Assembly (NCBI GenBank): GCA_017959225.1
Contig: JAGDBD010000088.1
Span: 1-41,273, forward strand
Length of the DNA: 41,273 bases
Source of the DNA: Fibrobacter sp.
Lineage (GTDB): Bacteria; Fibrobacterota; Fibrobacteria; Fibrobacterales; Fibrobacteraceae
Direction of reading: 5' to 3'
Part shown: positions 4,130-40,462 of the stretch, one piece after another
How the letters are laid out: the number at the start of each line of letters is the position of its first letter
How positions within the stretch are numbered: the first letter of the stretch is position 1
Notes under the pieces: model-generated
What the model was told of the DNA's origin: nothing
The model's input: the letters and a program-made list of their open reading frames with translations, nothing else
Database searches by the model: none
Program-made: the position numbers and the translations under genes

Positions 4130-5061
4130 AGGTAACCCTCCGGTTGTACCCAGTTCCATTTTTTGACACCGGACCTTGGCCAGGAATAGATGGTCCAAAC
4201 GACGCAGTTCCCGTAAAGCATAATCGCCCAGAATCCGAACGCGAAAAGCAGAACCAGTGGAATAAACGCTAACGACCCGTAAAAAAGCGACATGCGGCCC
4301 ACAATGTTCTGTTGCAGCATAATGAGAATGGCCAGGTAAATGCAGGTGCAGACCCAGATGCCGATGCTTACGAGAAGGGACGGCCAAAAAAGTTTCTTAT
4401 AGGAATAGTGCCCTTTGCGGTAGGGCAGTAAAAAAATGGCAAAAAAGATGAGCGCAATGAAGATGACGTCAACCATGATCACCCAGAAAGCGCTCATGAT
4501 CTGCGGAACGGTATCCGTTGTAAAGAACGTCACGTTCTGCGCAATGTCCATGAGACCGAGCTTCACATGGTTCACAAACATGGCAAAGAAGGCAAGCCCG
4601 AGAGCCGCCAGCAAAAGGAGCGGCGTATAGGCGACGAACTGCTTTAAAAAGGAACGGGATGTCTGATTTTCCCAGACCACGTTCATATTGATTTCCAGGT
4701 TCCCAATGGCAAAGATGTAAGTAATGAAAAGCGAAATAGATCCGATCAAACCGAGAGTTCTCAAGTGAATGTGCTCCGTATTTTCAAGGAGCGGCATAAT
4801 GTCTTCGAGGGGAAGCCCCAAAGAGAAGAACTGGTCAAGAATCGGCAGGTACGCGTTGAAGAAGGAACCGAGACCGAGGGAAAGGGAAATCGCCGTCAAA
4901 AGAATCAAAAAAGGAATTACGGCGAGGAACGATGTGTACGTCATAGCGGCGGCACGGATCGTTCCATGGTGGAAAAGAAATGCTTTGGTCGAAATGATCA
5001 GCACACGAAGTGGAATTGGCCAGTTATGTGTCAAAAGATCGATGCGCTGCTCTAAAGTCAT
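4126..5061 (-). CDS. YihY/BrkB-family inner-membrane protein
   Basis: A 311-residue polytopic protein of the YihY/virulence factor BrkB family, once misnamed RNase BN. The role of the family is not settled. The sequence has about six long hydrophobic segments, among them the region after TYTSFLAVIPFLILL (a family hallmark near residues 40-55), LGLIGSISLFITYIFAIG, YTPLLLLAALGLAFFAMF, IMVDVIFIALIFFAIFLL and LLVSIGIWVCTCIYLAIL. LFYGSLAFIPLVLLF near the C-terminus is another conserved block. AGGA lies upstream of the ATG. It is the first gene of a minus-strand run with the barrel-like protein and the UvrA paralogue, and is divergent from the lipoprotein at 5124. Confidence 0.85.
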   Translation of the reverse strand: MTLEQRIDLLTHNWPIPLRVLIISTKAFLFHHGTIRAAAMTYTSFLAVIPFLILLTAISLSLGLGSFFNAYLPILDQFFSLGLPLEDIMPLLENTEHIHLRTLGLIGSISLFITYIFAIGNLEINMNVVWENQTSRSFLKQFVAYTPLLLLAALGLAFFAMFVNHVKLGLMDIAQNVTFFTTDTVPQIMSAFWVIMVDVIFIALIFFAIFLLPYRKGHYSYKKLFWPSLLVSIGIWVCTCIYLAILIMLQQNIVGRMSLFYGSLAFIPLVLLFAFGFWAIMLYGNCVVWTIYSWPRSGVKKWNWVQPEGYL

Positions 5062-6037: not shown

Positions 6038-7024
6038 ATGTTCAAGTTCAGCTTTCTTGTAAATCCGATCAGTGGAGGTGGCCAAGGCAAGGTCATCCTA
6101 AACTTTGTACCGGAAATCATGAAGTCCATGGGGTTTGAAGACTCCGAATGGACCGCTGAACTCACAAGCGGACAACGTTTAAGGGAACAGATTCGCGAAA
6201 CCGCCGAAAAAACGGAAACCTTGATTGCCGTTGGCGGTGACGGAACCATGTCCACCATGCTTTCGGTGATGCTCGAATCGGGACTTGCCGACAAGGTTCG
6301 CATCGGTCTGATTCCGCTTGGAACGGGTAACGATCTTGCCCGCGTCCTGAACCTTTATGAAACTTTTGTCAACAAGGGCCTTCTTTTTTTGGTACGTCGC
6401 CTGGTTCAGGCAAAGCACCGGCCCTTTGATATTTGGAAAGTGAACGGAAAATTCGTTTTGGCGAATTACTTTTCTAGCGGAATCGATGCTCGTATCGCTC
6501 ATGATTTTAACGCGGACCGTGCATCGGGAAAAATTTCGAGCTGTTCCGTGGTTGCAAATAAACTGCATTACGTGAACCGTTTTTTTGCAGACCGAAAACA
6601 CTGCTTGGGAAACGCTAAGCTTAAAGTTCTCGATCAGAATGGAACCTGGATCGAAGAAGATGTTTCCCATTATCGCACGGTGATTGTCGGTAACATTCCG
6701 AGCTTTGCTTCGGGCGCAAATCCTTTCAACGGCGGCGACATGGCGGACGGCCTTTTGGAAGTCGTCCCGGTTCCAAATATGGCATCTTTTTTTGGAGCGT
6801 TAGCGCTTGGAACAATTCCTTTGATCGGTAAAATTTACAAGAGCTTTTTCCTTAAAACGATCCATGCAAAAGAAGTGATTCTCCAAACACCGGAAGAGGA
6901 ATTTCACCAGTTGGACGGTGACGATTTGACGCACCGCGCAGGTTCGGAAATTCATATCGAATACGGCTGCCGCGTTCAAATGCTTACGCTTGAACAAGGC
7001 TTGATTTTTCCAGACAGCAATTGA
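6038..7024 (+). CDS. Diacylglycerol kinase-like lipid kinase (DagK/YegS family)
   Basis: A 328-residue protein of the DAGK catalytic family, which phosphorylates lipid hydroxyls such as diacylglycerol using ATP at the membrane face. NPISGGGQGK near residues 9-18 and the glycine-rich GGDGT at 66-70 form the nucleotide-binding signature. LIPLGTGNDLARVL (about residues 92-105) is the second conserved block, and HQLDGD near residue 292 the C-terminal metal-site motif. No Shine-Dalgarno precedes the ATG; a TATAGA box lies 10 bases upstream. Its stop overlaps a possible TTG start of lpxD, suggesting one operon for lipid phosphorylation and lipid A synthesis. The exact lipid substrate is unknown. 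Confidence 0.87.
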   Translation: MFKFSFLVNPISGGGQGKVILNFVPEIMKSMGFEDSEWTAELTSGQRLREQIRETAEKTETLIAVGGDGTMSTMLSVMLESGLADKVRIGLIPLGTGNDLARVLNLYETFVNKGLLFLVRRLVQAKHRPFDIWKVNGKFVLANYFSSGIDARIAHDFNADRASGKISSCSVVANKLHYVNRFFADRKHCLGNAKLKVLDQNGTWIEEDVSHYRTVIVGNIPSFASGANPFNGGDMADGLLEVVPVPNMASFFGALALGTIPLIGKIYKSFFLKTIHAKEVILQTPEEEFHQLDGDDLTHRAGSEIHIEYGCRVQMLTLEQGLIFPDSN

Positions 7025-12194: not shown

Positions 12195-13522
12195 TGAATA
12201 TTTCCGAAGCGGTCCAGTTCCTTGCAGAAGAAGCCAAAAAAACGGCCACTGCATTTGACATCATCGGCGGGCATTCCAAATCCGAAGGCGTTTCCGTTTT
12301 TCAAGGGAAGGTCCAGAATACGGAAATTTCGGAATCCGTGGGGGTCGGCATTCGCGCCTTTAATGGCGTTAAACCCGGCTACGCTTATACGGAACGTCTA
12401 ACTGAAGAAGCTCTTCGCCAAACTGTAAAAGACGCTTTGCTTCATACTCAGTTTACTAAGGATCTTCCCATTGAACTTCCGCATCCGGAATCTCATCCCC
12501 TTCGAAAAATCGAATACAATCCGGATTTAAAAAATGTGACGCTTGCGCAAATGGCGGAGCTTTCTATTGATATTGAAAAGCGCTGCTTTGCTCTTTCGAA
12601 AGATGTCAAGAATGTGCCGTATCTCGGTTGCCAAAAAGAAGAATCCTTGACCGTGTTTGCAAATTCCAACGGGATTTACTTTGAACGTCGTGACAACGGC
12701 ATCGGTGCAGGTGCGGGTGTTGTCGCGGAACGCGGTGGTTCTAAAAAGCTCGGCGGCTTTGATCAAGATAAAATGAGCCTTGAAGAACTTTCTGCCGAGA
12801 CCATTGCCAAAAAATCCGTGGAGCGGGCCCTTGAACTTTTGGAACCGAAAAAAATTGAAACGGGGAAAATGCCGGTTGTCCTTTCGGAACGAGTGGCTGG
12901 CCAAATCCTTGGCATGTACGCTTCATCCTGTGTTGCTGAAATGGTACAAAAAGGACAGTCGCGTTTGCAGGGAAGGCTCGGTCAAAAAATCGCCGGGGCA
13001 AAGCTTTCGCTTCTTTCGGACCCGACCCGCGAAGATCTTCCGGGAGTCAAAACTTACGACTCCGAAGGGACTTACGCAGACAAGGTGACCGTGGTGAACG
13101 AAGGCGTTCTTTCGGAATTCCTTTACAACTTAGAAACGGCCCACGTGGAAGGCAGAAAAAGCAACGGTTGCGCTTTGCGCTCTTACGAAGGTAAAGTGGG
13201 AACCGGATTTTCGAACCTGGTGGTTTTGCCGGGAGAATATACCACTGCGGAACTTTTGAAGCTTTTCCCGAAGTGCTTGCTGGTAGTGCGTTTAGAAGGC
13301 AATTCCGGTTGCAGTGCGATCAGCGGCGAAATGAGTATCGGTGTGCAGGGAATGTATGCGGAAAACGGTCATATTCTGCATCCGGTGGAAGGAGCAACGT
13401 TAAGTGCAAACTTTATCGATTTGCTCGAAACTCTCGTGGCGATCGGTAAAGAATATCCGGAATCTTACACAAGTCGCCAAGTTCCAGCGCTTGCTTTCCC
13501 GGAAATTGCCGTTTCCAACTAA
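12194..13522 (+). CDS. pmbA: PmbA/TldE-like metalloprotease-related protein
   Basis: A 442-residue member of the TldD/PmbA (TldE) family. In E. coli, TldD and TldE form a heterodimeric protease that matures microcin B17 and degrades some unfolded peptides. TldD carries the HExxxH zinc motif; that motif is absent here, so this is the TldE/PmbA side. Family features include the N-terminal ESVGVGIRAFNGVKPGYAYT stretch, GAGAGVVAERGG in the middle and the Gly-rich EGNSGCSAISGEMSIG region near the C-terminus. Being downstream of hemL with a one-base overlap suggests co-expression rather than a shared pathway. No TldD gene is in this window. Confidence 0.87.
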   Translation: MNISEAVQFLAEEAKKTATAFDIIGGHSKSEGVSVFQGKVQNTEISESVGVGIRAFNGVKPGYAYTERLTEEALRQTVKDALLHTQFTKDLPIELPHPESHPLRKIEYNPDLKNVTLAQMAELSIDIEKRCFALSKDVKNVPYLGCQKEESLTVFANSNGIYFERRDNGIGAGAGVVAERGGSKKLGGFDQDKMSLEELSAETIAKKSVERALELLEPKKIETGKMPVVLSERVAGQILGMYASSCVAEMVQKGQSRLQGRLGQKIAGAKLSLLSDPTREDLPGVKTYDSEGTYADKVTVVNEGVLSEFLYNLETAHVEGRKSNGCALRSYEGKVGTGFSNLVVLPGEYTTAELLKLFPKCLLVVRLEGNSGCSAISGEMSIGVQGMYAENGHILHPVEGATLSANFIDLLETLVAIGKEYPESYTSRQVPALAFPEIAVSN

Positions 13523-13654
13523 TTTTCGTGGCAAAAAACGGGGGGGGGAGCGTTTCTTTGTCATGATTTTGTAAAATCGTAACTATTTTTCCCTAAGTTG
13601 CAACTTCTGATGTTGTTATATCATCTAAATGGGGAGATTCAAAGTAGGTATAAC

Positions 13655-14767
13655 ATGAAAACACGTTTCGTTTTATTGATCGCTATTCTCTTTGGCTGCT
13701 TTTGGATGGTAGCTTGCTCTTCGGACTCCGCGGCAAATGGAATGCCCGGTAAAATGCCTGGCAAAAACGGTGCGCCTCCGGGAGCCGCAATGAATCGGAC
13801 GTTGCGTGTTACCGGCTATATCGCAGTTCCGGATTCGACCACGGGAACTTATACGGCAGACGGCGAACTCCTTGCCGATGCACAGGTCGATTTGAAAACG
13901 GAAACCTCCGGAAAGTTGGTGAAGCTCTACGCAAAAGATGGCCAGAAGGTTTCCAAGGGAACTCTCCTTGCAAAGCTCGATGACGGGGAACTCCAAGCGA
14001 ATTTGAAAAGCGCTGTGACGACTCTTGAACTTGCCGAGAAAAAAGCGGCAAGAACCAAAACCCTCTTTGAAAAGGACGGTGCGACAGCCGAAGAACTGGA
14101 ATCTGCCGAAAGCAGCGTGGAATCGGCAAAGGCTTCCAAAGAACTGATTGAAGCCCAGTTGAAAAAGGTGGAAGTTCGCGCACCGTTTTCTGGAACTTTG
14201 GGTGTTGTCGAAGTTTCGGAAGGCGCTTGGATGAATTCCGGATCGCAGATTGCAACCCTTACCAATACAAGTGAATTGAAAGTGGAATTTGAACTTCCGC
14301 AGCGCTTCTCCCGCAGTGTGAAAGTGGGCGACAAGGTCCTTCTGATCGATACAGAACAGGAAGTTCGTGCTGAAGCTAAAATTTCCTTTATGGATGCAAC
14401 GCTTTCGAATTCGAGCCGTACCCGCAAAGCCCGTGCCGTTGTGAATAATAAAAATGGTAAGTATTTGCCGGGTACTTATGTGCGAGTCCAGCTGGACTTT
14501 GGACAGGGAAATAATGTGGGCATGCCGATTCCTTCGGAAGCGGTGACTCTCGATGAAAAAGGCGCCTATATCTTTGTGGCTAAAGAAGGAAAGGCGAACA
14601 AAGTTTATATCAAGACCGGTTTAAGAACGCCGATCACGGTAGATGTCTTGGACGGACTTTCCACAGGCGATACAGTCATTGTTTCTGGCCTTATGAACAT
14701 ACGTGATGGAATGGGCGTCGAAATCAAGGAATTGGCAAATAACATGAGCTACGGGGTGAATGAATGA
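13655..14767 (+). CDS. RND efflux periplasmic adaptor lipoprotein
   Basis: A 370-residue membrane-fusion protein that bridges an RND pump and its outer-membrane channel. A lipobox (MVACSS, Cys21) shows inner-membrane lipid anchoring as in AcrA/MexA. A Gly/Pro/Met-rich linker follows, then the lipoyl half-motif LLADAQVDLKTETSGKLVKL, and a coiled-coil hairpin roughly residues 115-175 with heptads rich in Ala, Glu and Lys. The second lipoyl half is VRAPFSGTLGVVEVSEG, followed by beta-barrel and membrane-proximal domains. ATG at 13655 was chosen because it opens the signal peptide; an earlier in-frame ATG at 13598 would hide it. Its stop overlaps the pump start (ATGA). Confidence 0.92.
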   Translation: MKTRFVLLIAILFGCFWMVACSSDSAANGMPGKMPGKNGAPPGAAMNRTLRVTGYIAVPDSTTGTYTADGELLADAQVDLKTETSGKLVKLYAKDGQKVSKGTLLAKLDDGELQANLKSAVTTLELAEKKAARTKTLFEKDGATAEELESAESSVESAKASKELIEAQLKKVEVRAPFSGTLGVVEVSEGAWMNSGSQIATLTNTSELKVEFELPQRFSRSVKVGDKVLLIDTEQEVRAEAKISFMDATLSNSSRTRKARAVVNNKNGKYLPGTYVRVQLDFGQGNNVGMPIPSEAVTLDEKGAYIFVAKEGKANKVYIKTGLRTPITVDVLDGLSTGDTVIVSGLMNIRDGMGVEIKELANNMSYGVNE

Positions 14768-17700
14768 GTTTTTCGACACTTTCTATTCGACGCCCTGTGC
14801 TTGTCACAGTGCTTTCTTTGGGCATTGTGTTGATAGGCGCATTTGGCGCATCAAACCTAGGCATTCGTGAATACCCGAACGTTGACTCGCCGATTATTAC
14901 GGTGCGTACGACTTATACGGGTGCAAACGCAGCGGTGGTTGAAACCGAAGTGACCGAAATCATTGAAGCTTCGGTGAACAGTGCTTCGGGTATTAAATCC
15001 CTGACTTCCACAAGCTCTGACGGTAGTTCCACGATCCGTGCGGAGTTTGAAGTGGGAACGGATTTGGAAGCGGCTGCAAACGATATTCGTGACCGCGTTT
15101 CCCGTGTGGAAGGAAAACTTCCCGATGGCGCCGATGCTCCTGTGGTTTACAAGTCCGATTCGGATTCCGATCCGATTTTGATTGCGAGCCTTCTTTCGGA
15201 TACCCGTGATGCTATGGAACTTTCGGAACTTGCGACGAACGTGGTGAAGGAACGTTTGCAGACGATTTCGGGCGTTTCGGAAGTGAATCTTTGGGGTTCT
15301 AAAACGCCAGTGCTTCGCGTTTGGCTCGATCCGTTGCGTATGAAGGCTTTGGGCGTCACCGCTTCGGATGTTTCGGCAGCTCTTGCTGTAGAAAACGAAG
15401 AACTGCCTTCGGGTAAAATCGAAGGCCAGGCGATGGACCTTTCCATTCGTACCCTTGGACGTTTGGAAAACCCTGCGGATTTCAATGCGATCCCGGTTAA
15501 AACGGCTGCAGACGGCTCCATTGTAAAGCTTTCGGACGTGGCAACAATCCATTACGAACCGAAAGATACGCGTACCGGTTTTAAGCGTAACGGTAAAAAC
15601 GTGATTGCTCTCGCTGTGATTGCTCAGCCGGGTTCTAACCACGTGTCCATTGCGGATGAATTTTATAAGCGAGTGGAAGACCTCCGTCGTGACTTGCCTT
15701 CCGATATCCAGATTCTGAGCGGTCTCGATAAATCGGTGAATATTCGTTCGTCTATTCGCGAAGTGATTGAAACGATCTTCTTTTCGTTCCTGCTCGTGAT
15801 TGTTGTGATTTTCCTCTTCTTGCGAGAAGTGCGCACGACTTTGATACCGATGGTTGTTATTCCGGTTTCGATTGTGGGAAGCTTTTTTGTGCTTTACATT
15901 TTCGGGTTCTCTATCAACGTGCTGACGCTACTTGCCATGGTGCTTGCGATCGGCCTTGTGGTGGACGATGCCATTGTGATTGTGGAAAATATTTACCAGA
16001 AAATTGAACGCAATATGACGCCGAAAGCGGCTGCGGTTGCGGGCATTCAGGAAATCTTTTTTGCGGTCATTGCGACGTCCGTGGTGCTTATGGCCGTGTT
16101 TGTGCCGATGCTTGCCCTTGGCGGAACGACGGGCCTTTTGTTCCGTGAATTCGTGGCGGTGATGATCGGTACAGTCGTGATTTCGACATTCTGCGCATTG
16201 ACTCTTACTCCGATGCTTTGTTCGAAGATTTTACGCGCTCAGAAGAAAGGCGCTTTGTACAATGCGACCGAACCTTTCTTTGATTGGCTGAACGAAATCT
16301 ATAACAAGCTGTTGAACGCCTTCCTTCGTGTTCGCGGATTGATCTTTGTGATCATTGGCGCTTTGCTGGTGGCCGCGTACTACTGCTTTACGAGCCTTTC
16401 CAGTGAAATGGCTCCGCAGGAAGATAGTAACGTGTTCATGGTGAACATTTCTGCTCCGGAAGGAACGGGTCTTGGCCAGACGAAAAAGATGACCGAAGCC
16501 TTTGTGGAAGAAATGACCGCTTTGATGGATTCGACGGAATATGAAGAAGTTCAGGCCGGTGCGCGTTCTGGCGGAAGCTCCATGATCCGTGTAATGTTGA
16601 ATAGCGACAAATCCAAGCGTCGCTCCCAGAGCGAAATCGCTCGACAGGTGCAGGTTTTGGGCGCAAGCTACCCCGATTTGCGCGTGATGGTCTTTGAACC
16701 GCAAAGTATTAGTACGACTATGGGCGGTTTGCCTGTGCAGTTTGTGTTGCAGGCGAGCGACATCGAAGTTTTGAGAACGCTTTTGCCGAAGTTCACCGCC
16801 GAAGCGGAAAAGAGTGGCGTCTTTAGCGTGGTCAATGCGGACTTGAAATTCACAAAACCGGAGCTTCACGTGGAAATCAACCGTGAAAAGGCTCATGACC
16901 AGGGCGTTTCCGTGGATGACATTGCAACGACGATCGCACTCACCATGGGTGACCAGACTTACGGTGAATATTACAAGGACGGTCGCCAGTACGATATTAT
17001 TGGAGCAGTGCCGTATCAGTACCGCTTCTCGCCGACGAATTTGGACGAGTTGAGCGTTCGCAACGGCTCGGGTGAAATGGTTTCCGTTTCGAACTTTATC
17101 ACCTATACGGAAAAGTCCGCTTCGCCTTCGCTTCCGCGTTATAACCGCTTTAGTTCTGCGACGGTTTCTGCAGGCCTTATGCCCGGAAAAACTGTGGGTG
17201 ACGGTGTTGCGGAAATGCGCCGAATCGCTAAAGAAATCATTCCGGATTCTTTGAACATCCAAACGGAACTTACCGGAACGTCAAAGGAATTCGAAGAAAG
17301 CTCTTCGGGTCTTTATATCGTGTTCTTGCTGGCTCTGGCTTGCATCTTCCTTGTGCTGGCTGGACAGTTCGAAAGTTACCGTTCTCCGTTTGTGACCTTC
17401 TTTACGGTGCCGCTTGCACTTGCGGGTGCGGTGATTGCGCTCTACTTCTTTGGTCAGACGCTGAACATCTTTAGTGAAATCGCTTTGATCCTTTTGCTTG
17501 GCCTTGTGACAAAGAACGGTATTTTGATCGTGGAATTTGCAAACCAGATTGCGGAACGTACAGGTTGCTCTAGACTCGCCGCTGCAAAGAAGGCTGCCCG
17601 TTTGCGCTTCCGTCCGATTCTAATGACGAGCCTTTCGACGGTTCTTGGCGCTGTGCCGCTGATTTTGACGGGAACGCCTAGCCGTATCGCTATGGGTATT

Positions 17701-19170
17701 ACGATTGTGTGCGGCCTGTCGTTTGCAACGCTTTTGACGCTCTTCGTTGTGCCTGCTGCGTATTCCTTCTTTGCCGGAAAACCGAACAAGAATGTTCGTA
17801 TCGACCCGGAAGCAAATGCCGATCCGAATACCGGAACGAAAATTGCGTCCCTTGTTTTGACTGCTGTTTTGGCCGGAGCGCTGTTTGTTCCGCAAACGGT
17901 GGAAGCCGCCGTGCTTACGCCAGAAGAAGCGGTGCGGACCGCTATGGAAAAGAATACTTCAGCTTTGATGTACGAAGAAAATGTGAAGAGTGCCGAAGCG
18001 AACGTGAAAAGCGCTCGTAAAGGGCTCTTGCCGACGGTGGACCTTTCGCTTTCACGTTATTACACCTATGGCGATGATTATTCTAAAACCCAGGCGGGTG
18101 TCAAAACGGATATCGATGACGATTTGGGACATAGCGATGCGTTCCAGATTGCTGTGAACTACTCCGTTTTTGACGGCTTCAGCGACATTTCTTCGTATAA
18201 GGCGAGCAAGGCGCAAGTGGAAAGCTCCAAGGCCACGCTCCGTGCCGAACGGGAATCTTTGGCTGCTAACGTGCTGACCGCTTATTTCAACGCGGTGAAT
18301 GCAAAGTCTTCGCTGGTACTTTCGGATTCGAACCTTTCGGTTTCGAGAGAACGCCGTGAACTGGCGAGGAACAAGTATGAAGCAGGAGCGATGACGCGGC
18401 TGGATTACCTTTCTGCGCATATGGATTTTTCTAGCGACAGCGCATCGAACCTTTCGCTGGCATCGAACCTTTCGACAGCCATTCGAAACTTGGACGAACT
18501 CTTGGGCGGTGGCGTTATCCAGAGCGGAGACGATCTTCCGGATTCCATCGATGTGGACAGAGATCCTTTTTGGATGTCTGCCGAAGGGCTTGCGCAGGCG
18601 AAGTCCAGAGCATTGGACAATAACGCTGAACTTGCCGCTGCAAAGGCGCAGATGAATTATGCCCAGGTGAACCGCAAAGGATCCAATTCCGGACTTTATC
18701 CGAAGCTCAATTTGCACGGATCCTGGAACGCTTCCGCTAGCGAATCGGACAAGTCGAACCCTGCCGAATCGAACAGCCAATATTTTAAGGTTGGCGCGGC
18801 TTTAACGTGGAACCTCTTTAACGGTTTTGCGGACAATGCTACAGCGGAATCGGCAAAGATTGCGGAACGTTCTGCGGAATTGAAGGTGGAAAATGTGCGC
18901 TTGAACGTGGAAACGAACGTGGCAAATGCCGTGGACACCCATTTGCGTGCACTGGAATCCTTGGAAGTCGCAGAAGGGAATGCAAATCTCGCTTCCGAAA
19001 TGTTGAAACTTGGTGAAGAACGCTTAAAAGCGGGAAATATCACGAACTTTGAATTCCGTGAAACTCAAAGCCAGTGGCGAACGACCCGTGAAGCTCTGCT
19101 TTCTGCCCGGGTTTCTGCTCGGAATGCGGAAATCCAGGTGAAGCTTTTGACGGGCGACATTTTGAAATAG
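14764..19170 (+). CDS. RND permease fused to TolC-type outer-membrane factor
   Basis: One uninterrupted 1468-codon gene. Residues 1 to about 1010 are a complete HAE1-type RND proton antiporter: RRPVLVTVL start, two large periplasmic loops, Asp401-Asp402 in TM4 (GLVVDDAIVIVEN) and Lys917 in TM10 (TKNGILIVEFA), the proton-relay residues. After TM12 comes a polar linker (about 1010-1025). Residues about 1026-1049 then read like a signal peptide with an EAA end (IASLVLTAVLAGALF, then VEAA). Residues 1050-1468 are an outer-membrane efflux protein with two repeats (LTPEEAVRTAMEKN; later LDYLSAHMDF and GNITNFEFRETQ). No internal ATG suits a separate TolC gene at the joint. Similar fusions are known among CzcA/CusA-type pumps of Bacteroidota; here the pump is of the drug type. 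Start coupled to the adaptor gene. Confidence 0.9.
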   Translation: MSFSTLSIRRPVLVTVLSLGIVLIGAFGASNLGIREYPNVDSPIITVRTTYTGANAAVVETEVTEIIEASVNSASGIKSLTSTSSDGSSTIRAEFEVGTDLEAAANDIRDRVSRVEGKLPDGADAPVVYKSDSDSDPILIASLLSDTRDAMELSELATNVVKERLQTISGVSEVNLWGSKTPVLRVWLDPLRMKALGVTASDVSAALAVENEELPSGKIEGQAMDLSIRTLGRLENPADFNAIPVKTAADGSIVKLSDVATIHYEPKDTRTGFKRNGKNVIALAVIAQPGSNHVSIADEFYKRVEDLRRDLPSDIQILSGLDKSVNIRSSIREVIETIFFSFLLVIVVIFLFLREVRTTLIPMVVIPVSIVGSFFVLYIFGFSINVLTLLAMVLAIGLVVDDAIVIVENIYQKIERNMTPKAAAVAGIQEIFFAVIATSVVLMAVFVPMLALGGTTGLLFREFVAVMIGTVVISTFCALTLTPMLCSKILRAQKKGALYNATEPFFDWLNEIYNKLLNAFLRVRGLIFVIIGALLVAAYYCFTSLSSEMAPQEDSNVFMVNISAPEGTGLGQTKKMTEAFVEEMTALMDSTEYEEVQAGARSGGSSMIRVMLNSDKSKRRSQSEIARQVQVLGASYPDLRVMVFEPQSISTTMGGLPVQFVLQASDIEVLRTLLPKFTAEAEKSGVFSVVNADLKFTKPELHVEINREKAHDQGVSVDDIATTIALTMGDQTYGEYYKDGRQYDIIGAVPYQYRFSPTNLDELSVRNGSGEMVSVSNFITYTEKSASPSLPRYNRFSSATVSAGLMPGKTVGDGVAEMRRIAKEIIPDSLNIQTELTGTSKEFEESSSGLYIVFLLALACIFLVLAGQFESYRSPFVTFFTVPLALAGAVIALYFFGQTLNIFSEIALILLLGLVTKNGILIVEFANQIAERTGCSRLAAAKKAARLRFRPILMTSLSTVLGAVPLILTGTPSRIAMGITIVCGLSFATLLTLFVVPAAYSFFAGKPNKNVRIDPEANADPNTGTKIASLVLTAVLAGALFVPQTVEAAVLTPEEAVRTAMEKNTSALMYEENVKSAEANVKSARKGLLPTVDLSLSRYYTYGDDYSKTQAGVKTDIDDDLGHSDAFQIAVNYSVFDGFSDISSYKASKAQVESSKATLRAERESLAANVLTAYFNAVNAKSSLVLSDSNLSVSRERRELARNKYEAGAMTRLDYLSAHMDFSSDSASNLSLASNLSTAIRNLDELLGGGVIQSGDDLPDSIDVDRDPFWMSAEGLAQAKSRALDNNAELAAAKAQMNYAQVNRKGSNSGLYPKLNLHGSWNASASESDKSNPAESNSQYFKVGAALTWNLFNGFADNATAESAKIAERSAELKVENVRLNVETNVANAVDTHLRALESLEVAEGNANLASEMLKLGEERLKAGNITNFEFRETQSQWRTTREALLSARVSARNAEIQVKLLTGDILK

Positions 19171-19182
19171 ATGGATCTTTGA

Positions 19183-19210
19183 AAAAAAACGTAGAATTCT
19201 ACGTTTTTTT
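19183..19210. terminator. Palindromic terminator after the efflux operon
   Basis: CGTAGAATTCTACG (19190-19203) is a perfect palindrome flanked by seven A on the left and seven T on the right, so the whole element can act in both directions. It ends the adaptor-pump transcript 12 bases after the stop. Confidence 0.85.
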
Positions 19211-19246
19211 ACATTCCATGGAACAAGAATTATTTAATTCATAGGT

Positions 19247-20263
19247 ATGAATAGAATTCTTTGTTTGGTGGTATGTTTAGCCGCATTCCTTTTTGCTGAG
19301 GAAAAGCTTCCCGTTTATAAGACTGACAATCCTACTTCCCAGATTCTTGGCTATTTGACGGTTTCGGACAAAGTAGAAGAACTTCCGATTCCGCCGAAAA
19401 AGAAGAAAGTGGTGAAGTACGTGAAGCAGCGCGATTCCAAAAAGAAGAAGCGGGTTGTGCAGTATGTGGAGCTTCCGCCGGGACCTCCGCCGGAATACAT
19501 TCCTGTCAAAACGCGCGTTGCTAAAACGGGCTATGTTCGCCGTGCGGACCTTGCCCGTTTGAAGGAACGCGCTACGGATTTGAGCGGGATTTATTCGTCT
19601 CCGACTGGAAGCGTGGTACTTACCAAGTCTCCTAATTCACCGGATCGTTTTAATATTGTTATCCAGAATGGCCATGGCAAATTCCGGGCGGCCATTTCGA
19701 TGGGAAATGTGCAGGCTCGGGAGCAGTTTGGTCATACCCGTTTTAGCTATTCGGAACCGGATTGCAACGTGGACGTGGACCTGTTTGAACGCAAAGTTCG
19801 CGTGGCGCAAAAGGGTTGTGATGAATACAATAGTTCCAGGAACACTTTAGCCGGAAATTATGACACTTATACGGAATACCGCCATCGTGCAGAAGTCTTT
19901 AACGACCCAGAAGTGAAGGCGAATTTTAGCAAGTTCGTTTGGTGTCCGGAAGGCCCGAGCTCCTGCGAAAAGATCCGTGACGAAGACGGTTGCAGCGTGG
20001 AAATCGTCTGGAGCAAAGATTCCCATGGAATGATTGAACGGCATTGCGGTGAACGAGTTCACAAGTACCGCCCCATGGAAAGCATGATCCCGCATAAGCA
20101 GGATTTTTACAAGGGCGAAAAGCCGATTATGATCAAAGCGAAACGCACCGATATGGCTAATGAATGGATGGTCTGGTCTTATTATCCGGAAGCCAAACGT
20201 TTTAAAATGGTTCGCCAGGGAATGCGTGCGGACGCCGCCTATATGGAAATTTACGAGCCGTAA
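19247..20263 (+). CDS. Secreted protein of unknown function, Lys-rich N-terminal region
   Basis: A 338-residue exported protein that I do not recognise. The signal peptide MNRILCLVVCLAAFLFAEE is probably cleaved near residue 17. Residues 25-100 recall an SH3-like scaffold (YKTDNPTSQILGYLTVSDKVEEL) interrupted by a dense lysine tract (PKKKKVVKYVKQ and SKKKKRVVQYVE) and a Pro-rich turn. YVRRADLARLKE closes this part. The C-terminal two thirds contain LSGIYSSPTGSVVLTKS and six cysteines, several paired by spacing (CPEGPSSC, then C and C), suggesting disulphides. No catalytic motif was seen. Start support is weak: no Shine-Dalgarno, with a TATTTA box 10 bases before ATG. Confidence 0.65.
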   Translation: MNRILCLVVCLAAFLFAEEKLPVYKTDNPTSQILGYLTVSDKVEELPIPPKKKKVVKYVKQRDSKKKKRVVQYVELPPGPPPEYIPVKTRVAKTGYVRRADLARLKERATDLSGIYSSPTGSVVLTKSPNSPDRFNIVIQNGHGKFRAAISMGNVQAREQFGHTRFSYSEPDCNVDVDLFERKVRVAQKGCDEYNSSRNTLAGNYDTYTEYRHRAEVFNDPEVKANFSKFVWCPEGPSSCEKIRDEDGCSVEIVWSKDSHGMIERHCGERVHKYRPMESMIPHKQDFYKGEKPIMIKAKRTDMANEWMVWSYYPEAKRFKMVRQGMRADAAYMEIYEP

Positions 20264-38081: not shown

Positions 38082-38115
38082 TTTTGTATAAGCTTTTTAT
38101 GGAAGCTCGGTGGGA

Positions 38116-40377
38116 TTACTTGTTTCCCGAACGGATCTTGTTCAGAGCGCTACCTGCTTTGAACCATTCCCACTGCTGTTGGTTGTAGGTCTGACTCAGT
38201 TCGGCGGAGTCTTCGGTTCCGTCTGCGTGGTGAATGACCAGGGTGAAGTGGCAGCCCGGGGTGAAGTTTGTAAGCCCGTTGATATCGAAGTAGTCGCCTT
38301 CGCGGACCTTTTCGTAATCGGCCGGGTTTGTGAACGTCAGAGCGAGCATTCCCTGCTTTTTCAAGTTGGTTTCGTGGATACGGGCGAAGCTGCGGACGAT
38401 CACGGCTTTGACTCCGAGATAGCGCGGTTCCATGGCTGCGTGTTCGCGGCTAGAACCTTCGCCGTAGTTTTCGTCGCCGACGACGATAGAACCGATTCCA
38501 GCATCACGGTACTTGCGAGCAAGTGCCGGAACTTCGTAGAACTGTCCATCGTTTCCTTTCACTTGGTTCGTCTGGCCGTTGAAAGCGTTGACTGCTCCAA
38601 TCAGCATGTTGTTCGAAATATTTTCCAAGTGGCCGCGGAACTTGAGCCACGGACCGGCCATCGAAATATGGTCGGTGGTGCACTTGCCCTTGGCTTTGAT
38701 CAGGAGCGGAGCACCGGAAATGTTCTTGCCGTCCCAGGCTTTGAACGGAGAAAGCAACTGCAAGCGTTTGGAATCCGGACTGACAGAAATCTGGATGTTC
38801 GAACCGTCTTCAGCCGGAGCCACATAGCCCGGATCTTCGACAGCAAAACCGTTTGCCGGAAGTTCGTCCTTTTTGGGCGGAACAAGCTTCACCTGTTCGC
38901 CCTTGTCGTTGACGAGAAAATCCTTTTCCGGATTGAAGAGAAGGGAGCCGGAAAGGGCTGCTACAACGGCCATCAAAGGGCTAGCGACAAATGCGTGCGT
39001 GTTCGGGTTGCCGTCTGCACGCTTGGCAAAGTTGCGGTTGAAACTGTGAACAATGGAATTCTTTTCTTTCTTTTCTGCACCGAGACGTGCCCACATGCCG
39101 ATGCACGGACCGCAGGCGTTCGTCATGATGGTTGCACCGAACTGCTTGAAAAGGTCGATGAAACCGTCGCGTTCGGCGGTGTAACGGACCTGTTCGGAAC
39201 CCGGGTTGATAATCAACGGAGCCTTCGGCGAAAGGCCCTTTTCCAAAGCCTGCTTAATGAGGGAAGCCACTTGGGAAAGGTCTTCATAACTCGAGTTCGT
39301 GCAGCTGCCGATAAGGGCTGCGCTTACAACGTGCGTCGAATCGAATTCCTTAAGGGATTCCTGCATTTCGTCGATGGGGAATCCGCGATCCGGGCTGAAC
39401 GGACCGTTGTAATACGGCTTCAGCGTGGAAAGGTCGATTTCAATGACCTTGTCAAAGTACTTTTCCGGTTCGGCTTCGACTTCCGGGTCTGCACGGAGAT
39501 AGTCAGCGATCTTGTTCGCTTCGTCTGCGACGGCTTCACGGCCCGTTGCGCGGAGGTAACGTTCCATGGTGGCGTCGTAGCTGAACGTGCTGCAAGTGGC
39601 ACCGACTTCGGCACCCATGTTAGCAATGCTTGCTTTGCCTGTAGCAGAAAGTTCGCGAGCGCCTTCGCCAAAGTATTCGCAAATGGCGTTGGTTCCGCCC
39701 TTCACCGTGAGCAGTCGAGCGACTTTCAAAATGACATCCTTCGGACTTGCAAAACCGGTGAGCTTACCCTTCAAATGAATGCCGATGAGCTTCGGGTATT
39801 TAAGTTCCCACGGAAGTCCGACCATAGCGTCCACAGCGTCTGCACCGCCCACACCGATGGCGAGCATACCGAGACCGCCTGCGTTCACCGTATGGGAGTC
39901 CGTTCCGATCATCATGCCGCCCGGGAAGGCGTAGTTTTCAAGGACGACCTGGTGAATGATGCCTGCACCCGGTTTCCAGAAATCGATGCCGTATTTGGCT
40001 GCGACAGAACTGAGGAATCCGTAAACTTCTTTGTTTTCGTCGAGGGCTTTCGGAAGGTCTTCTTCCTTACCGTTTCGAGCTGTAATCAAATGGTCGCAGT
40101 GAACGGAAGACGGAAGGGCCACCTTGGACTTGCCTGCGGTGGTGAACTGGAGCAAGGCCATCTGAGCCGTTGCATCCTGCATGGCAACACGGTCCGGGTG
40201 GAATTCCGCAAAGGACTTGCCACGTTCATAGACCTGGTTTTCTGCACCATCGATCAGGTGAGAATAAAGGATTTTTTCTGCCAGGGTCAACGGGCGACCG
40301 AGCAGCTTACGCGCTTTGTCCACACGTTCTGGGATGCGTGCGTAACGTTCCTTGATCATGTCCAAGTTAAAAAGCAT
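38116..40377 (-). CDS. Aconitate hydratase, mitochondrial-like type
   Basis: A 753-residue [4Fe-4S] aconitase, turning citrate into isocitrate in the TCA cycle. Cluster ligands are Cys359 (GSCTNSS) and Cys422/Cys425 (ACGPCIGM). TDSH at 159-162 and the C-terminal swivel-domain block [19 protein letters not shown] are conserved. Length, order of motifs and the MERYL start of the central section fit the mitochondrial ACO2-like group rather than the longer AcnA (about 890) or AcnB. GAGG precedes the ATG. It stands alone between the patatin gene and ruvB. A long opposite-strand frame is only a coding shadow. Confidence 0.93.
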
Positions 40378-40462
40378 AAAAGTACCTCATAGACGTTGGG
40401 GAACAATTTAGTAAATCAACGCTGAATTTTAGCGCTTGTAAGCGATTTAGAAAGGGATTTGA

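Follow-up and report, generated by a model that had tools for sequence, protein, structure and literature searches.

A fused RND permease and TolC-type channel with a signal-peptide-like joint in Fibrobacter and its relatives

The locus and the two halves of the fusion gene

The analysed window, a 41,273-nucleotide contig of Fibrobacter sp., encodes on its forward strand an RND permease–TolC channel fusion (14764..19170; 1468 codons and a stop). The gene is a single uninterrupted frame, and its 1468-residue product consists of an HAE1-like RND permease followed by a complete TolC-type channel. The assignment is based on the open reading frame, on Pfam matches (ACR_tran, then OEP twice), and on conservation in relatives; it agrees with the preliminary description of this DNA, which had reported one frame of 1468 codons containing pump and channel with no stop between them. 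The upstream gene of the same operon (13655..14767, forward strand) encodes a periplasmic adaptor of the RND_mfp/HlyD family (TIGR01730, 231 bits, above the cut-off) and overlaps the start codon of the fusion gene by ATGA (14764–14767). The adaptor is probably a lipoprotein, as predicted from its N-terminus (MKTRFVLLIAILFGCFWMVAC/SS; here and below, the slash marks a predicted cut), the lipobox cysteine having been judged by eye. Directly 3' of the fusion gene lies an open reading frame of 338 codons (19247–20263), the position of which is kept within the genus; its product had no match in Pfam or NCBIfam. Elsewhere in the window, two frames of 760 and 753 amino acids (38110–40392 on the forward and 38116–40377 on the reverse strand, respectively) overlap almost completely, and one of them is probably spurious.

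The permease domain (14773..17772, forward strand) covered nearly the whole ACR_tran model (PF00873): residues 4–1003 matched model positions 2–1020 of 1021 with about 901–902.8 bits, the cut-off being 28. The residues of the proton relay, two aspartates in TM4 (D401 and D402) and a lysine in TM10 (K917), were found at the positions reported earlier and were invariant across the 11 full-length fusions. All the best-scoring subfamily models for this part were of the multidrug type, but the curated cut-offs were missed (TIGR00915, 698.9 bits against 940.35; NF033617, 984.7 bits against 1250); therefore, we label the RND part “HAE1-like”, which keeps the sense of the previous “drug-type” designation without a curated HAE1 assignment. 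With the HME model TIGR00914 the score was 343.7 bits against a cut-off of 701.45, placing the RND part far from the metal type.

The predicted mature TolC-type outer-membrane channel corresponds to residues 1049–1468 (17908..19167, forward strand). Two OEP repeats (PF02321), starting at residue 1053, were recognized with 195 bits, above the gathering score, and two matches were also obtained in the genome scan. The AlphaFold model of the joint and the channel (mean pLDDT 74.5) had the complete TolC topology: four beta strands, two helices of approximately 67–69 residues, and split partner helices. A Foldseek search with the channel model matched TolC, OprM, CmeC, and CusC with E values of 1e-14 to 1e-18; TM-scores by target were about 0.6–0.7 for 1ek9, 1wp1, and 3pik. 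The genome scan also revealed several other, separate OEP channels; thus, the fused channel is not the sole exit duct of the organism.

Distribution and history of the fusion

The same fusion was found in 12 genomes of five genera, one copy being ended by a contig edge. Within the genus of the window, it was present in all six genomes (83–90% identity for the others). The copies in genera g3, g5, g8, and g10 were 58–65% identical. Among the carriers, G002 is a complete single-contig genome, and G005 is the isolate Fibrobacter intestinalis ATCC 43854 (NZ_FUWU01000009.1). A scan of genome contigs for the fusion returned Fibrobacter-type records only. The assembly containing the window is a draft of 130 contigs, so that a sequencing or assembly error merging two genes into one frame had to be considered, and a frameshift had been named beforehand as an outcome that would overturn the description. 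This explanation is of negligible probability and can be regarded as ruled out: the fusion recurs in 12 independently assembled genomes with identities down to 58%, including the complete genome and the isolate, and the trees of the pump and channel halves are congruent.

A search for split versions had also been proposed. Unfused forms were of two kinds: a solo RND gene in some relatives, and separate pump and channel genes outside the family. The same RND gene with no channel behind it occurred in genus g2 (Fibrobacter proper), in genus g4, and in one genome of genus g5. The C-termini of the solo proteins are conserved, with DASKMA in all the g2 genes read (L014–L020, L071–L088), the preceding stretch being variable. 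In the fusions, the hydrophobic stretch of the joint begins right at the position of this end (DASKMAGFLLP...). In one genome, G023, the 170 bases following the stop codon of the solo RND gene carry traces of both ends of the channel half (L037, reverse strand, about 6345–6520). The remnant of its start reads SKLLFSEELAQMAF, a stop, and KN, versus SKLLMPTEAVQMALSKN; behind the scar lies the usual neighbour gene (80% identity). The presence of both ends indicates that the channel was deleted there from a fused gene.

In the family, these data fit a single early fusion followed by three or more losses of the channel, since the joints are homologous, each channel half has its closest relatives among the other channel halves, the channel tree is congruent with the RND tree, and one deletion scar is preserved. 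Repeated gain needs as many steps (four) as a fusion followed by losses, and the polarity is not proven beyond G023. Monophyly of the fused forms in the family was rejected (p-AU 6e-5). As several lineages lost the channel half, it is dispensable in some of them.

Pump and channel are encoded separately in the nearest relatives outside the family, and the two genes often share an ATGA stop/start overlap; thus, a one-base indel near this overlap could fuse them. The split HAE1-type operons of Bacteroides finegoldii and of Fibrobacterota family f3 encode an adaptor, an RND permease, and a TolC-family channel in the order seen at the fusion locus, with the RND proteins about 47–48% and the channels about 24–28% identical to those of the fusion. 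In these operons, where the RND stop and the channel start often overlap by ATGA, two proteins are made from two starts, and the channel carries its own N-terminal signal peptide.

A second RND–TolC fusion lineage was found in family f10, with proteins of 1511–1533 amino acids in G146, G151, G156 (two), and G138 (L126–L130) and an additional contig-cut copy in G138. Its RND half belongs to another subtype (GMLVDNAIVVLDNI), being about 30% identical to that of the window, and its channel is weakly similar to the window's channel. In the tree of this lineage, the fused forms are nested among the split ones, and one change of state suffices. The second fusion is independent of that in the lineage of the window. 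The lineage-2 joints are signal-peptide-like (VAA/QSS, SNA/GSL, LNA/ESN, SHA/QSD, and GNA/EDS), and four of the five pass the strict small-x-Ala rule. In their split relatives (RND about 55–62% identical), the place of the joint is mostly occupied by a channel gene of the ordinary kind, with a normal signal peptide; therefore, the lineage-2 joint corresponds in position to the channel's own signal peptide, kept on fusion. In G145 (L135, stop ending at 4602), the pump and channel genes lie in the same frame and are separated by one TAA and two codons (junction ...KISDAN, stop, RG MMKKVTITLFTILTLNYLYA/SEVFSL).

The joint

In the window, the joint (residues 1005–1048; 17776..17907, forward strand) consists of a cytoplasmic tail followed by a predicted retained signal peptide, as judged from alignments, a shuffle test, and the split relatives of lineage 2. 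The latter part is composed of K1026, a hydrophobic core (about residues 1030–1042; 17851..17889, forward strand) with a hydropathy maximum of 2.6 over 12 residues from residue 1031, P1043, and V1046-E-A1048. By the small-x-Ala rule, signal peptidase I would cut between A1048 and A1049 (17905..17910, forward strand). The preliminary description of a signal-peptide-like joint is retained in its essence, but the VEAA ending given there is one residue too long, the predicted cut being after VEA. In the AlphaFold model, the joint appeared as a low-confidence helix (pLDDT about 40).

We did not accept the single-sequence signal-peptide rule as proof because most RND membrane helices pass it as well (148 of 215 RND membrane segments). 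An invariant alanine column in the default alignment was likewise not used: it depends on gap placement, and a second alignment method shifts it. A hydrophobic segment in the expected orientation was present in 12/12 sequences of lineage 1, and all 12 joints have a small residue at –3 and alanine at –1, with the first conserved channel residue a short distance downstream. In the shuffle test, small-x-Ala was found in nine of nine distinct joints, whereas 4.4 were expected (product of chances 9e-4); when proline or glycine at –8 to –4 was also required, the product of chances was 2e-5. The joint changes fastest, with 4.3 changes per column against 1.1 in the pump and 2.3 in the channel. Within the genus, dN/dS was about 0.05 for the pump, about 0.05–0.08 for the channel, and about 0.2–0.4 for the joint; both halves of the fusion are thus under strong purifying selection, the joint less so. 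The joint is best interpreted as a retained signal peptide of the channel gene.

The channel half could also be made separately by internal initiation, in which case the continuous frame would be incidental. In genera g3, g8, and g10 and in one g5 genome, an in-frame ATG (in KMAG) does occur just 5' of the hydrophobic core, possibly at the site of the ancestral channel start. However, codons 997–1031 of the window, from the last RND helix to the core of the joint, contain neither ATG nor GTG nor TTG, bearing out the earlier statement that a suitable internal start is lacking. The joints of F. intestinalis G005 and of G018 also have no ATG, and so the channel has no separate start in the window or in these two genomes. 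Furthermore, no Shine–Dalgarno-like motif was found near the joint of the window, no promoter-like site was found on the forward strand from 13300 to 20105, and no promoter or terminator pattern in the region exceeded chance. We therefore regard internal initiation as very improbable.

Proposed processing of the precursor and its significance

The preliminary description had left two fates for the joint: a thirteenth membrane segment tethering the channel to the pump, or a site cut by signal peptidase. If the joint stayed uncut, the assembly would be covalent, and this is the main rival to cutting. It would be in line with the single frame without a stop and with the correctly oriented hydrophobic segment in all 12 sequences, and the simple signal-peptide rule cannot separate the joint from RND membrane helices. 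The main objection is geometry. The periplasmic part of AcrB is 70 Å (40 + 30 Å) tall, and the periplasmic barrel of TolC measures about 100 Å, its N-terminal helix lying in the mid-barrel equatorial domain (PMC8277102). In a canonical assembly, the distance from the inner membrane to the N-terminus of the channel should accordingly be at least about 120 Å, whereas the first channel helix follows the hydrophobic core after only about 10 residues; an uncut tether would thus be far too short. In addition, anchoring in the inner membrane would make insertion of the channel in the outer membrane hardly feasible, the small-x-Ala site is kept while the remaining joint drifts, and the split genes of lineage 2 have an ordinary signal peptide as the equivalent segment. 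Taken together, the lineage-2 homology, the kept site, and the short linker favour cutting, and we consider a permanent tether unlikely.

Cutting of the precursor by signal peptidase I into a pump and a mature channel is quite probable. Cleavage elsewhere or by a different protease, for example with an additional cut in the cytoplasmic tail, and with a part of the precursor staying uncut, would be permitted by a joint so variable in length and sequence; it is very doubtful, since nothing specific points to another protease and small-x-Ala is the most consistently kept site. Cleavage by signal peptidase I would come in trans from the host enzyme, two S26-family signal peptidase genes being present in the genome, so the term “self-processing polyprotein” used previously does not hold.

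According to the mechanism we propose, the single precursor would supply two subunits of one tripartite efflux pump, and the adaptor would come from the overlapping upstream gene. The RND part would be inserted co-translationally in the inner membrane, leaving its C-terminus on the cytoplasmic side; the joint, acting as an internal signal peptide, would then enter the Sec translocon and start export of the channel part. After the cut behind Ala1048, the pump would remain in the inner membrane, perhaps with a remnant thirteenth segment, while the freed channel would form a trimer, reach the outer membrane, and rejoin the pump and the adaptor. Such a gene would have originated from an adjacent RND–channel pair that became one frame, the signal peptide of the channel being retained as it is still required for export and release. 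It is reasonably likely that this happened twice independently in Fibrobacterota, each time making one precursor out of neighbouring genes, from which signal peptidase I releases a pump for the inner membrane and a channel for the outer membrane that reassemble in one machine. The proposed benefit would be equal and coordinated synthesis of both parts. The earlier suggestion that the fusion fixes their ratio is plausible, but as an advantage specific to the fusion it is weak, given the ATGA-coupled split relatives and the loss of the channel half in several lineages.

The part classes are those of AcrAB-TolC and MexAB-OprM, namely an RND permease with the Asp-Asp-Lys relay, a HlyD-type adaptor, and a TolC-fold channel. 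In those systems, the parts are encoded by separate genes, whereas in the Fibrobacter type the pump and the channel form one precursor. Fusions of CzcA/CusA-type (HME) permeases to TolC-type channels, cited as known in the preliminary description, would share the gene architecture, but the RND part described here is far from HME. No metal-type RND–TolC fusion was found in 151 genomes of the phylum or among the plasmid matches looked at, and no RND–channel fusion of any type was seen in plasmid records. On a Haliscomenobacter plasmid (L152, 4001–7218), a CusA-type permease is annotated as two adjacent genes of 1290 and 1926 bases, representing a broken or split RND gene.

A precedent for the proposed processing is FbcH, the cytochrome b-c1 precursor of Bradyrhizobium japonicum, in which a polytopic inner-membrane protein is followed by an internal signal peptide and then by an exported domain, the precursor being matured by proteolysis. 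An FbcH-like layout, in which charged, hydrophobic, and small-x-Ala elements precede the exported domain, was present in all lineage-1 joints and in four of the five lineage-2 joints. FbcH belongs to a respiratory complex and its product stays anchored in the inner membrane, whereas the second product of the fusion is predicted for the outer membrane. In a literature search, which is weak evidence of absence, we did not find such fusions or Fibrobacter pumps of a similar kind described. Thus, the parts and the pump class are known, while an HAE1-like single precursor with a retained signal peptide, in two lineages, was not found described.

For annotation, the data mean that a complete outer-membrane channel may go unnoticed in proteins of about 1450–1530 amino acids named only “RND permease”. 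Should the precursor be cut as proposed, the fusion would offer a natural way of expressing parts of a trans-envelope machine at 1:1, and it would be a rare instance of a single polypeptide supplying both membranes. It would also provide a tractable substrate for studying how internal signal peptides are recognized and cut in polytopic proteins, and it would let one ask whether a pump and a channel that are made together prefer each other as assembly partners. The fusion can be tested in a cultured isolate, F. intestinalis.
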